Shown: positions 55,700 to 60,232 of the stretch, piece by piece
Position numbering within the stretch: position 1 is the first letter of the stretch
Layout of the letters: every line of letters starts with the position of its first letter
Source of the DNA: Amphritea japonica ATCC BAA-1530
Lineage (GTDB): Bacteria; Pseudomonadota; Gammaproteobacteria; Pseudomonadales; Balneatricaceae
Direction of reading: 5' to 3'
NCBI RefSeq assembly: GCF_016592435.1
Contig: NZ_AP014545.1
Span: 1,930,693 to 1,994,692, forward strand
DNA length: 64,000 nt
The notes under the pieces: model-generated
Told to the model about the DNA's origin: nothing
What the model saw: only the letters and a program-made list of their open reading frames with translations
The model's database searches: none
Program-made: the position numbers and the translations under genes

Positions 55700-55989
55700 T
55701 TTAAGTCCTCAAAAAAGTTAGGTTAGTACTCCACAAAAGCACTAACCTGATTTATCTGAAAACAGGAGAACAGCAGATGCTAACTAAACCATCTGCTAAC
55801 AGTCTTGCATATAAAACATTAGGACAGATCAACAGGTACTTAAGGCGGTATCGTTATTTCAAATACGGACAGCAATTATACATAAAAGAAGGCCCCTGAA
55901 AGCGCCGCTCTTATAATCGTCAGGGCGCAGCGGGAAAAGTAAGGAGGTGCATGTTGTTTGAATAAAAAAAGCCCCTTACGGGGCTTTTT
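55700..55989. other. Intergenic region upstream of ndh, with a short unit before a terminator
   Basis: Holds the ndh promoter side and a compact pattern at 55941-55991: AAGGAGG, an ATG at 55951, three more codons, a stop, then a strong terminator. Only a tetrapeptide would be made. TATAAT at about 55911-55916 could be a -10 box for a short plus-strand RNA. Confidence 0.4.
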
Positions 55990-55991
55990 TT
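55964..55991. terminator. Bidirectional terminator ending the signalling gene cluster
   Basis: GCCCC (55971-55975), loop TTAC, GGGGC (55980-55984), with long A and T runs on both sides. On the minus strand it lies just inside the end of the PhnD-like gene. Confidence 0.92.
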
Positions 55992-56736
55992 AGTCAATAA
56001 GTGTATCTATCAGATCGATCATAAACTCCGTTTGTTCAGAGTCCATCGGCTCCCAGTTGCTGACATCCATACTCTCCAGCACACTTTTACCTTTATCGTT
56101 ATCCTGCATTGTCAGTAAAGCTTGTTGTATAGCAGGAATATACTCCGCCATACGCGGACCAACCAACAAGGAGTGATGCACAACGCTAATCTGACTACTA
56201 ACTAGAACTCGCATTTTTGAGCGAATCAGATCAGACATCTCATCATACGCTTCCTTTAAAAAGAACCCCGCATCTGCGCCACCATTGAGTAAATTTTTGG
56301 CGACTACGATATAGCTGCTTTGCTCTTTTATCTCGGTATTGGTTTTATCCAGATCAGCAGACTCCAACATAATCATACCCATGGTATGAACATCAGGATC
56401 ATCTGTCGTAGCAATCCGCGCACCTGCTTTAAGGTCTTCTACAGATTGATAATCAGATTCAACATTAACCGCAATCACTGTTTCATCAGACTTACTGGCA
56501 GGTCTTGCTACCGCCTGGAACCCCAACTCACGCACCAACATAGAAGCGTCATATGGATTTGCATAGATAAGATCAAATTTTTCAGCGCGAATATCAGTAC
56601 GTTGCGCATCAAAGCTATCATAGAGCTCCAGATGAATACCGGTTTCCAGCTGACGCTGAAGCCAGGTATTAAAAAAATACCACCCGGAGATATGGTCAGG
56701 CGCGAAATCAGGGCTGACCGTCAAGTTGAACGTCAT
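55990..56736 (-). CDS. PhnD-like substrate-binding protein without signal peptide
   Basis: The 248-residue protein has the two-lobed PhnD (phosphonate-binding) fold: TFNLTVSPDFAPDHISGW, FDLIYANPYDASMLVREL, ESDYQSVEDLKAGARIATTDDP and the hinge GGADAGFFLKEAYDEM. It has no signal peptide and begins directly with the fold, so it stays in the cytoplasm. The ATG at 56736 follows GAGGAG, which also overlaps the PAS gene stop. It is the last of six genes with Roadblock and PAS proteins; a ligand-sensing role is more likely than transport. Confidence 0.82.
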   Translation of the reverse strand: MTFNLTVSPDFAPDHISGWYFFNTWLQRQLETGIHLELYDSFDAQRTDIRAEKFDLIYANPYDASMLVRELGFQAVARPASKSDETVIAVNVESDYQSVEDLKAGARIATTDDPDVHTMGMIMLESADLDKTNTEIKEQSSYIVVAKNLLNGGADAGFFLKEAYDEMSDLIRSKMRVLVSSQISVVHHSLLVGPRMAEYIPAIQQALLTMQDNDKGKSVLESMDVSNWEPMDSEQTEFMIDLIDTLID

Positions 56737-56741
56737 AGGTC

Positions 56742-57212
56742 TCACTCCTCAGCCAACAAAGTTTTATAAAGCGCTTCACTCTCTTCTATCTTGCTACGTG
56801 AAGGCTTACGCCGGACTGAGGTATAGCCCATCAGCTCTCCATTACGAATATTGGGGATTACTGTAGCCTTTACCCAGTAATAAGCGCCATCTTTACGTAG
56901 GTTTTTAACATAACCATGCCATTTCGTCCCCTCTCCAATCGTATCCCAAAGCCCTTTAAAAGCGACTGCTGGCATATCAGGGTGACGTAAAATGTAATGG
57001 TTAACACCGATCAACTCATCTTCACTGTAACCAGACATGTCAATAAATGCCTGATTTGCGTGGGTTATAATTCCCTTTGGATCTGTCCGCGATACAATCA
57101 GCTTACCATCAGGGTATGGAACTTCCCTGTTGACGATCGTGGCTGTACGCACAGTTCCATCAAAATACGCTATTTCAACACTACGGGTTTCACTTGTGTC
57201 TTGATCAGACAT
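56742..57212 (-). CDS. Single-PAS-domain protein (Aer-type)
   Basis: The 156-residue protein is one PAS domain with THANQAFIDMSGYSEDELIG, HYILRHPDMPAVAFKGLWDTI, KNLRKDGAYYWVKATV and a C-terminal short helix. The PAS style is like Aer, where FAD sits in the fold, but I cannot confirm a cofactor. No output domain is present, so it must act on other proteins, most likely others in this cluster. Its stop overlaps the ribosome site of the PhnD-like gene. Confidence 0.88.
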   Translation of the reverse strand: MSDQDTSETRSVEIAYFDGTVRTATIVNREVPYPDGKLIVSRTDPKGIITHANQAFIDMSGYSEDELIGVNHYILRHPDMPAVAFKGLWDTIGEGTKWHGYVKNLRKDGAYYWVKATVIPNIRNGELMGYTSVRRKPSRSKIEESEALYKTLLAEE

Positions 57213-57294
57213 ACTTCAAGCCTTCTTCGTTCGGGCACATTTTATTGCACAGCCAATGACGGCTTCTACAATATATGGGAACCTATGTTAACGA

Positions 57295-57657
57295 TTAAAG
57301 GATCTTACCGATCGCCTCTGCCGCACGCTTAACATCCAGAAATATCAAACCCAGACGAGCATTTGGTTTAGCAACAACAGTCAGTACAGAGTCCTGGTTT
57401 GCATGGGTCATCAGGATATATCCCTCATCACCTTTAACCAGTACTTGCTCAAGCTCTCCACGGGCCAGCTCTTTAGCTGTTCGCTCGCCAAGAGAAAGCA
57501 TAGCAGCACTCATCGCACCGACACGGTCTTCATCCATACTAGATGGCAACAACGCCGCAATCATCAGACCATCTGTAGAGATAACTGCAGAGGCTTCGAT
57601 ATCAGCTGATGTACCGTTGAGATCACTCAAAATTGAGGTAAGCATCTCAGAACGCAT
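57295..57657 (-). CDS. Roadblock/LC7-domain protein
   Basis: The 120-residue protein is a single Roadblock/LC7 domain: LSDLNGTSADIEASAVISTDGLMIA at the start (first part), DRVGAMSAAMLSLGERTAKEL, and LVKGDEGYILMTHAN, followed by a helix. In bacteria such domains (for example MglB) usually act on small Ras-like GTPases, or hold protein assemblies together. No GTPase lies in this window. Five genes with related roles surround it. Confidence 0.88.
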   Translation of the reverse strand: MRSEMLTSILSDLNGTSADIEASAVISTDGLMIAALLPSSMDEDRVGAMSAAMLSLGERTAKELARGELEQVLVKGDEGYILMTHANQDSVLTVVAKPNARLGLIFLDVKRAAEAIGKIL

Positions 57658-57715
57658 AGAACACTCCTTCAGTAATGTCTCCCTTTATGGGAGCAAAAAA
57701 CAATTAGTTAATTTA

Positions 57716-58351
57716 TTAATAATCGAGATAACGACGCGCCAAACAACTCAGCAATTCTGCAAATGCCTGCTGATTAAGTTTTGGCATATCTGAGATCACC
57801 AGACTAAAACGCTGATGACCAATGTGAACAACCCAGAACCCCACCTGACTCTGCCCTGCTGCATTCATAATGCCCCAGGAATCTCCCGCCAGTTCCAGAT
57901 CGTTACTGATAACCTTTTTATGACGCTCCTGGAGCGAGATAAGGTCTGCGGCCAAAGCGGCCAGAGTTTCAGCATGCTCTGAGGGGTAACCTGTCGATGA
58001 AAGGCAAAAACCCTGATCATCTGCAAGTAACGCTTTTCCACTGTCAGATAACTGCATTAACAGATCAGGCAAAGCATCTTCAAGAGGCCCTCGTTTAATC
58101 TCAGGAGGCGTTTCTGATAACGACACAAACCCCCTGTCTAGCAACTGTTGAAACAACCCCATAGCCTGTACTTCTTCAAGATCTGCAAGCTCAGCAATCA
58201 ATTCGAGAGAATACAGTAGCTCGAAATCAGTCGACAACAACTGCAATAGCATCGCTCTCGCGTCATCAGGGGCCGAATTCAGGGTTGCAAAAAAAGCACC
58301 GCTAGGGGTTATTGCGATATAACGAATGGAGTCCTGATTGAAATCTCCCAC
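57716..58351 (-). CDS. Roadblock-like protein with N-terminal extension
   Basis: The 211-residue protein has an N-terminal half that is helical (AELADLEEVQAMGLFQQLLDRGF), perhaps a small winged-helix domain, and a C-terminal half, from about residue 90, that looks like a divergent Roadblock fold: GKALLADDQGFCLSSTGYPSEHAETLAALAADL. It follows the 430-residue gene by about 100 bases and precedes the LC7 gene by 58. No exact family recognised. Confidence 0.65.
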   Translation of the reverse strand: MGDFNQDSIRYIAITPSGAFFATLNSAPDDARAMLLQLLSTDFELLYSLELIAELADLEEVQAMGLFQQLLDRGFVSLSETPPEIKRGPLEDALPDLLMQLSDSGKALLADDQGFCLSSTGYPSEHAETLAALAADLISLQERHKKVISNDLELAGDSWGIMNAAGQSQVGFWVVHIGHQRFSLVISDMPKLNQQAFAELLSCLARRYLDY

Positions 58352-58448
58352 CTATTACTCTCCGGATACTTTTAGTCATTATTTCATAGCCCTTATAATC
58401 CACATCACTGTGCGGAACTCTTCTCAGGGCTACCCTATTTCATCGAAC

Positions 58449-59741
58449 TTATTTGAATGCACCAACAGCATTTGCTGCGGTCATAAACGAAAACACATAA
58501 CGTTGATTAATCTTAAGCACTTTAACCACTTCTAAAACCGATAAACTATGACGTCCCCATAAACTGGCAATAGTCGTTGCATGGGGAATTGCCAGTAAGT
58601 CATCAAAATCAAGCTTCTTCGATAAGCGATATGGTTTTTCAGGATCAATACTACGATTCAACCGACCCTTAGATGTCCAGAGTGCTAATTTCCATATCAG
58701 CTCATCACTATTAATAACGACCACCTTGGTGCCCGATATACTCGGACGATCAACATCGAGGTCAGGACGCACTTTAAGTGTCAACTCCTGATAACCAAAG
58801 CGCGTCAGCGCCAAAGGCACGAGTAACTCTTCACTAAAATCGAATAAAAACTTTTTATGCTCAGGCAGGTAAGCCAAAGTCCCCGGCAACCCTGTTATCT
58901 CAACAGGTATTCCCTGAGTTTCACCTTCGTCTATCACTTCAAGGAGAATAGCCAGCAAGGTTGAGTCATCTTTAAAAAAGACCCGGCGGCGCTGGTCTGG
59001 CTCATGCATATTGACATCAGGGGCATTACCACAGCACTCATACACCATTTGATAGGAAAGCTTAGCCTTCACTTCTTCAGGTTTTTTCTGAGGTTTTTTC
59101 TGCTGCTGCGGAGTAGCTGCTTTTGCCTTAGGGCGCGCAGCGGTAACACTCTTAGTTTCAGTCGCCTTGTTCACAGAACCCAGCGGTGAAGCCGTAGGTT
59201 CTGGCGTTGCCGAAGCTGGTTGAGAATCACTTAGCTGGAAGCGGCTACGCACGTGCTGAGAAACATCATCCCGCTCCGCTGTAAGGTCGTTGTAATCAGA
59301 CATCGCCTGGCGGCCAGCAGCAACTCGCTTTTGATATTCCTGAAACGCCTTCTCCCCTTCATTAGTCACACTTGGAGAGCTTGCCTGTTCGTTTTTAACC
59401 GGTACAAAATTTTCCGCTGCCTGTTTAATGGCTTTAATCAGGCGCTTGCCTTCCAATGGTTTGCTCAATGTTTCAAAACCATCAAACTTACGCTCGGTCG
59501 AGGTTACAGCAATGATTGGACGACTATTTTGATAAGTCTCAATGACCGGCTTAACGGCAGGATGTTCCATGTCAATTATCAATACTTCAGCCTGCTCAGT
59601 CGGCACCATACGGTACTCCTCCTGATGCTGCATAAAGAACAGATCAATCGCTGATTTGGATTGCAACTCAAAGCCAACCACACCCAGCTTGATAACTTTG
59701 CTTGCTGCACGCTTGTTTAGTTTGATATGAGATACTCCCAC
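58449..59741 (-). CDS. Unrecognised protein with a receiver-like N-terminal segment
   Basis: The 430-residue protein has an N-terminal 115 residues that look like a response-regulator receiver fold: VIKLGVVGFELQSKSAIDLF, AEVLIIDMEHPAVKP and RPIIAVTSTERKFDGFETLSKPLEG. The aspartate after VLIID could be the phosphorylation site, and KPLEG fits the end of the fold. A long, charged, low-complexity linker (about 120-225, QQQKKPQKKPEE) follows, then a 200-residue C-terminal domain with no match I know. It may be an adaptor. No function is inferred beyond a link with the neighbours. Confidence 0.55.
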   Translation of the reverse strand: MGVSHIKLNKRAASKVIKLGVVGFELQSKSAIDLFFMQHQEEYRMVPTEQAEVLIIDMEHPAVKPVIETYQNSRPIIAVTSTERKFDGFETLSKPLEGKRLIKAIKQAAENFVPVKNEQASSPSVTNEGEKAFQEYQKRVAAGRQAMSDYNDLTAERDDVSQHVRSRFQLSDSQPASATPEPTASPLGSVNKATETKSVTAARPKAKAATPQQQKKPQKKPEEVKAKLSYQMVYECCGNAPDVNMHEPDQRRRVFFKDDSTLLAILLEVIDEGETQGIPVEITGLPGTLAYLPEHKKFLFDFSEELLVPLALTRFGYQELTLKVRPDLDVDRPSISGTKVVVINSDELIWKLALWTSKGRLNRSIDPEKPYRLSKKLDFDDLLAIPHATTIASLWGRHSLSVLEVVKVLKINQRYVFSFMTAANAVGAFK

Positions 59742-59779
59742 AACTAGTCCCGCCCTGTTTAGTCAGTTTCAATAATCAA

Positions 59780-60232
59780 TCAATGCAGTGAAAAACGACC
59801 GTTAATGACAACAGACTTCTGCGGACTCAATGATAACAATCTGGTGTTATCACCCTCTTCTATGACTAACTTAAACAGTTCCAGATCATCAGGATTAAGT
59901 AGTGGAGCCCCCTGATCTAACAAACGCTGCTTCAACGCCAGCCCCCGCTCTTCCAGGATGAGAAAAAGATCCATTAGCGCGCCCGTTAACTCAACGCCAT
60001 CCTGACAAAGAACAGATAAGTAGACCCGTTGAACATGGCTGCGCAGGTTATTCGGAGCAGACGCGACTAAGCGATTATAGTGATGAAGTAATACTGACTT
60101 GTGCGGCCCGTCGTAGATCAGCCCTTTACCTTCTAACGCAGTAAAAAGAGTCTCAATATTAAGGGCATTTAGCCCCTCAAGCTCTGCATTGAGTTCCCAA
60201 CCGGAAACTGCTGCCCAAATAGGTGAATTCAC
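59780..60232 (-). CDS. Hypothetical protein, first gene of the Roadblock cluster
   Basis: The 150-residue protein is helical, with LFTALEGKGLIYDG, LLHHYNRLVASAPNN and LTGALMDLFLILEERGLALKQRLLDQG, and ends in SLSPQKSVVINGRFSLH. No family recognised, no signal or membrane segment. Co-directional with the five following genes; 38 bases before the 430-residue gene. Confidence 0.6.
   Translation of the reverse strand: MNSPIWAAVSGWELNAELEGLNALNIETLFTALEGKGLIYDGPHKSVLLHHYNRLVASAPNNLRSHVQRVYLSVLCQDGVELTGALMDLFLILEERGLALKQRLLDQGAPLLNPDDLELFKLVIEEGDNTRLLSLSPQKSVVINGRFSLH

Follow-up and report, generated by a model that had tools for sequence, protein, structure and literature searches.

The stretch of DNA analysed here, hereafter the window, comprises 64,000 nucleotides of Amphritea japonica ATCC BAA-1530 (contig NZ_AP014545.1, positions 1,930,693 to 1,994,692), whose genome consists of a single contig of 3.83 Mb. 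Between positions 55990 and 60232 it carries six minus-strand open reading frames that resemble, in their sequences and arrangement, a Group 3 MglA system from which the GTPase is missing. Group 3 systems are described, in the accessible part of PMC4316618 (Wuichet and Sogaard-Andersen 2014), as combinations of a receiver-like protein with a predicted winged helix-turn-helix (wHTH), an MglA and one or two MglB proteins in beta- and gammaproteobacteria. In the window, the gene order is H150 (59780..60232), REC (430 residues, 58449..59741), RblB (57716..58351), RblA (a Roadblock/MglB-type protein of 120 residues, 57295..57657), a stand-alone PAS protein (56742..57212) and a PhnD-like binding protein without a signal peptide (55990..56745). 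The successive spacers measure 38, 97, 58 and 82 bases, and the last two genes overlap by 4 bases (-4). A hairpin with a perfect stem and a T run, read from the sequence of the same strand, occupies positions 55964..55991, resembles a terminator and overlaps the last stop codon of the cluster. Reading frames, spacers and hairpin all bear out what had been proposed for this DNA in a sequence-only reading, namely six genes running in one direction with small or overlapping gaps and a single terminator. This hairpin is absent from the list of a consensus scan for promoters and terminators, which gave no evidence of its own: it returned 6 terminator-like sites where 4.0 were expected and 4 promoter-like sites where 8.9 were expected. 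None of the six proteins receives a name above cut-off from NCBIfam, except for a generic PAS domain model on the PAS protein. High expression of RblA, considered on the basis of codon use (0.51, compared with 0.36-0.45 for its five neighbours), was dropped as a candidate property, the value lying well below that of AcnB (0.73), which is itself part of the reference.

The Roadblock, PAS, PhnD-like and receiver-like domains assigned by the sequence-only reading stand on unequal ground: the calls for RblA, PAS and PhnD are strong, that for RblB is weak, that for REC emerges only from a profile, and H150 has no match. RblA, the most conserved product of the six genes, matches the Pfam family Robl_LC7 (7.6e-17), and its comparison with solved structures leads to the conservon Roadblock protein cvnB5 (5.1e-11), the MglB chains being matched only weakly (2.1e-3). 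RblB joins a conserved N-terminal region to a divergent Roadblock domain, which falls below the Robl_LC7 cut-off in the window protein (6.5e-4) and matches this family at E 0.01 or better in 17 of 56 aligned orthologues; near-identical sequences and those of unusual length had been excluded from alignments. The best solved match of the RblB profile is again cvnB5 (E 0.0017). REC has no Pfam match at 0.01, and its profile matches solved receiver domains with a best E of 0.0011. Several residues typical of receivers are kept, namely D57 (53/58 rows), T or S80 (52/58) and K94-P95 (58/58). Both ends of the REC alignment are conserved and its middle is not, which gives a receiver-like N-terminus, a variable linker and a conserved C-terminus. 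Because the Group 3 counterpart of this 430-residue protein is predicted to end in a wHTH (PMC4316618, accessible part), the earlier statement that none of the six proteins carries a DNA-binding domain is doubtful.

The PAS protein matches Pfam PAS_3 (1.1e-15), and the Aer aerotaxis receptor is its closest solved match (5.2e-34). Seven residues of Aer, T27, H53, R57, M69, W70, N85 and R115, are listed as contacts of flavin adenine dinucleotide (FAD) in the accessible part of PMC9668731. Five of them, H53, R57, W70, N85 and R115, correspond to H72, R76, W89, N104 and R134 here, each kept in at least 97% of 56 rows. As judged from these residues, the PAS protein is of the Aer type and a candidate FAD binder. 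The PhnD-like protein matches Pfam Phosphonate-bd (2.8e-41), while a sequence search at E 0.01 found no solved structure related to it; its Y61, N63, P64, D87, E88 and H191 are kept in at least 97% of 53 rows. Visual inspection of the window protein and of 12 starts showed no hydrophobic N-terminus, and Pfam finds no transporter among the six proteins. Both the PAS and the PhnD-like protein look, as had been suggested, like cytoplasmic sensors. In some relatives a protoglobin gene adjoins RblA (L119:9847-10437, and also at loci L113, L114, L124, L128, L218 and L255), in two of them together with PAS and PhnD; one of these protoglobins was checked against Pfam. Protoglobin is possibly an alternative or extra sensor. 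A search of the literature for operons that combine Roadblock proteins with PAS or PhnD found nothing to the point. Elsewhere in the window, a 919-residue open reading frame at 33092-35851 matches the PAS profile of the cluster (7e-42).

The conservation of the cluster was followed in a set of 80 loci, the best 80 of at least 538 matches to the RblA of a relative and thus not a random sample; 22 were assigned to the family of the window organism and 58 were not. Gene order was counted in the 65 that are fully flanked, the other 15 having too little flank, and further genome stretches were chosen by hand from search matches. H150, REC, RblB and RblA occur together in 64 of the 65 loci, mostly in the same order. 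The arrangement H150-REC-GTPase-RblB-RblA-PAS-PhnD is found in 20/65 and the same arrangement without the GTPase in another 20/65, followed by H150-REC-GTPase-RblB-RblA (13/65) and REC-GTPase-RblB-RblA-H150 (4/65); the remaining 8/65 are single or double variants, including one isolated RblA with a PAS gene. Since these genes are found in one and the same order across many genera, the cluster is not a chance neighbourhood, and the idea that the genes are kept as a unit across related genomes is upheld. The nearest relatives of the window cluster are Amphritea loci. RblA is present in 13/17 genomes of the genus, in 53/99 of the family sample and in 70/369 genomes of the class sample (E 0.001), many of the latter matches being more distant Roadblock proteins; in some class-level loci nothing but REC and RblA, or just RblA, is kept. 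REC diverges fast, to judge from its sequence; used as a single query it finds matches in 9/194 genomes of the order, own genome included. Profiles built over 67 sources recover the cluster. In one genome (G254, loci L094 and L095) the core with one RblA stands at one place and a second RblA with PAS and PhnD elsewhere.

The variable presence of the two sensor-like genes bears on the proposal that PAS and PhnD-like proteins are mere passengers, and that RblA, RblB, REC and H150 build a structural polarity scaffold which positions, for instance, type IV pili and senses nothing. Both genes are missing from 17/65 loci, the core and an RblA-PAS-PhnD piece lie apart in G254, and a structural role has a precedent in the Roadblock paralogue MglC, which is sandwiched between MglB dimers (PMC7949163, accessible part). 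On the other hand, PAS and PhnD are each present in 47/65 loci, mostly in the order RblA-PAS-PhnD, the five FAD contacts are kept and REC looks like a regulator, all of which makes a scaffold devoid of sensing quite improbable.

The most conspicuous difference between the window and many of its relatives lies between REC and RblB. In relatives such as Thiothrix, Leucothrix and Methylococcales this position is taken by a GTPase of about 180 residues, which matches Pfam ATP_bind_1 and, more weakly, Ras, and whose solved matches include Rab and MglA. Its G3 motif reads YGTPGQ and lacks the aspartate, the lysine of G4 is often missing (though present in some rows) and G5 contains DAR; by sequence these motifs fit the description of MglA in Group 3. 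The slot is empty in all 22 family loci, and the gap from REC to RblB is at most 104 bases in all 21 further family stretches holding both genes; the GTPase is present in 54 of the 58 other loci. The four exceptions are L185, with a truly empty slot, L232, cut by the end of its contig, and L248 and L255, where RblA stands without REC and RblB. The absence of a Ras-like GTPase from the six-gene module is therefore correct as first reported, and as a description of the system it is incomplete: relatives carry the enzyme inside the cluster, the genome of the window has one elsewhere, and its absence recurs in separate lineages. Two in-cluster Group 3 type GTPases are fused to a protein kinase domain (L123:10344-11846 and L131:7033-8622). 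At L289:7091-8611, a GTPase of 175 residues adjoins a protein with a weak match to the REC profile (2e-12), possibly a second mini-module.

The search for an MglA-like GTPase elsewhere in the own genome, which had been suggested, yielded one strong homologue of 331 residues, 0.9 Mb away from the cluster (L146:1048-2043). It is 47% identical to the query over query residues 2-171 (1.8e-45), has MglA-type motifs with a G4 lacking lysine and VDAR, and continues for about 140 residues into a C-terminal region. Such GTPases occur in 33 of the 99 genomes of the family sample, all of them RblA-bearing (33/53, against 0/46 without RblA). These data suggest an alternative in which the system still runs on its GTPase, the gene having left the operon and been extended by a C-terminal region, with its product now acting in trans from 0.9 Mb. 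The own-genome match, the restriction to RblA-bearing genomes and the fact that 18 of 20 distal family GTPases form one group (99/73) are in line with it, the attachment of this group among the in-cluster GTPases being not settled. The distal enzymes may, however, belong to a cassette of their own, as small genes that belong to a single recurrent family adjoin them in 10/18 stretches, the own genome not being among these; two of these small genes match the RblA profile weakly (4e-5 and 3e-5) and have no Pfam match at 0.001. Moreover, no GTPase is detectable in 20 of the 53 RblA-bearing family genomes, including the single-contig genomes G037 and G270, and a profile search of the same 20 genomes added none (0/20), returning only short P-loop noise with a best E of 0.02. 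Relocation was rejected as a full explanation because these 20 genomes have none, and two further lineages also lack it altogether; continued dependence on a GTPase in trans appears rather unlikely.

The two further lineages are represented by G608 with G393 and by G438, where a GTPase elsewhere was found in 0/3 genomes (G608 being 79% complete); 14/14 chosen GTPase-bearing controls were positive. A quick tree built from RblA, RblB and REC has 78 rows and no outgroup (19 loci were skipped, as was any without all three genes); on it the presence or absence of the GTPase has to change three times, and starred branches force each of these changes. Since MglA belongs to the published system, these sequences are most simply read as three losses. 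The remaining genes show no sign of decay. The cluster was read in 12 of the 20 GTPase-less family genomes, with H150, REC, RblB and RblA in 12/12 and PAS and PhnD in 11/12. Compared with 10 loci assigned to Amphritea, the ratio of non-silent to silent differences (pN/pS) is 0.000-0.069 for RblA and 0.050-0.389 for the five other genes, silent sites being saturated in many pairs. Among 18 family loci without the GTPase, RblA has a mean pairwise identity of 0.96, versus 0.90 among 20 Thiotrichales loci with it, the corresponding values being 0.66 versus 0.70 for RblB and 0.42 versus 0.41 for REC. RblA thus shows no relaxation in loci without the GTPase; the figures denote a lack of relaxation and not a stronger constraint, because the two groups differ in age and sampling.

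The part of the cluster that changes along with the GTPase is H150, which has no Pfam match and whose fold is unrecognised by sequence. Long orthologues carry a C-terminal extension with matches to tetratricopeptide repeat (TPR) models, in 8/59 for the commonest Pfam model, and the end of the H150 profile matches solved TPR structures. The window protein, which reaches only column 144 of the 239 consensus columns, lacks this extension. Lengths were compared in 99 entries (the window, the 80-locus set and 27 hand-picked stretches of the 67 sources, some genomes being present twice), where H150 is shorter than 200 residues in 33 of 34 entries without the GTPase and in 6 of 65 with it, related loci being counted repeatedly. 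In four of the six short exceptions that have a GTPase, H150 stands after RblA. The pattern suggests that the C-terminal tail of H150 likely contacts the GTPase. In Myxococcus, MglA reportedly acts with a TPR protein, SgmX, on pili.

Taken together, we favour by a modest degree the reading that the cluster derives from a Group 3 MglA system, and that a GTPase-independent Roadblock complex passes redox and ligand signals to a receiver-wHTH protein. In such a mechanism, the receiver-wHTH protein would be bound by a Roadblock platform made of RblA dimers and RblB. Two sensors would act on this platform, the Aer-type PAS protein reading the redox state of its flavin and the PhnD-like protein reading a small cytoplasmic ligand. 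The receiver-wHTH protein would be the output, probably at the level of gene expression tied to surface behaviour such as that based on type IV pili. The GTPase would represent an optional second input or switch, mostly lost together with its likely contact, the tail of H150; the distant MglA-type GTPase of the own genome may or may not still touch the complex.

A number of observations weigh against this interpretation. The acidic pair of REC is poorly kept (D23 in 11/58 rows, D or E25 in 28/58), and its phosphorylation is therefore doubtful. The wHTH is taken from a Phyre2 prediction for the C-terminus of the Group 3 counterpart (PMC4316618, accessible part), and only one of 58 REC orthologues matches a model of this type (TrmB, 0.0011). 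Two of the seven FAD contacts are not accounted for, since M69 of Aer corresponds to L88 and T27 falls outside the alignment fit. An MglA-type GTPase is present in the own genome, and GTPases that occur only with RblA might still work with it, a pattern confounded by kinship. The tree, a quick one that lacks an outgroup, is also compatible with one gain plus two losses, and L185 has a long H150 with no GTPase. Finally, the link to pili is weak: PilQ is above cut-off in 52/53 RblA-bearing and 31/46 other family genomes, and 10 of the 15 other family genomes without PilQ belong to one genus, which confounds the co-occurrence with type IV pili.

Beyond the derivation of this one cluster, a wider claim can be put forward only tentatively: that Roadblock/MglB signalling may operate without any MglA-type GTPase, with a PAS protein that senses redox through FAD and a PhnD-like receptor in the cytoplasm acting through the platform on the receiver-wHTH protein, and that this state may have arisen separately in three gammaproteobacterial lineages. 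Bacterial Roadblock proteins have been studied mostly as regulators of MglA-type GTPases. Genomes in which Roadblock proteins are under strong constraint and no such GTPase is detectable are natural strains in which to ask what Roadblock does alone. In the open-access literature no report was found of signals feeding Group 3 systems; the cluster names candidate inputs, namely flavin redox state, a PhnD ligand and, in relatives, haem protoglobin.

Several known systems can be compared with the cluster. The PAS domain of Aer is the closest solved match of the PAS protein, with five FAD contacts in common, but the protein of the cluster stands alone, without receptor domains. The Myxococcus MglA/MglB/MglC/RomR polarity module likewise brings together Roadblock proteins and a receiver protein, but it has a Group 1 GTPase and a different gene arrangement, and RblA matches solved MglB weakly. 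The actinobacterial conservons (CvnA-D, Group 2) also contain a Roadblock protein and, like the relatives of the window, a GTPase with a DAR motif in one operon; in contrast, Pfam detects no histidine kinase of the CvnA type in any of the six proteins, and the GTPase is missing here. The mgl operon of Snodgrassella, with its orphan mglB-3, is likened to the cluster by its description as Group 3 type and by MglB size (121 residues), and mglB-3 is reported to alter pilus-dependent motility, a precedent for such an effect of an MglB from a Group 3 system; unlike the window cluster, that operon includes mglA (PMC11112851, accessible part). The last comparison is with the Group 3 MglA systems themselves. 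One or two MglB-type proteins (here two), clustered with a protein of receiver-like N-terminus and variable linker, are found in both, a wHTH-like end being predicted for the Group 3 counterpart and putative here; the relatives of the window have an MglA with Group 3 motifs, and an MglA with a deviant G4 and DAR in G5 is encoded in the genome, so that the core of a module first taken to be undescribed is a published arrangement. The operon differs in having no MglA, and H150, PAS and PhnD-like proteins are unmentioned in the accessible part of the Group 3 description (PMC4316618). As the coupled MglA, encoded within the cluster, is the defining feature of Group 3, the cluster is filed, on its gene content, as a putative GTPase-less variant of the Group 3 system and not as a member of it.

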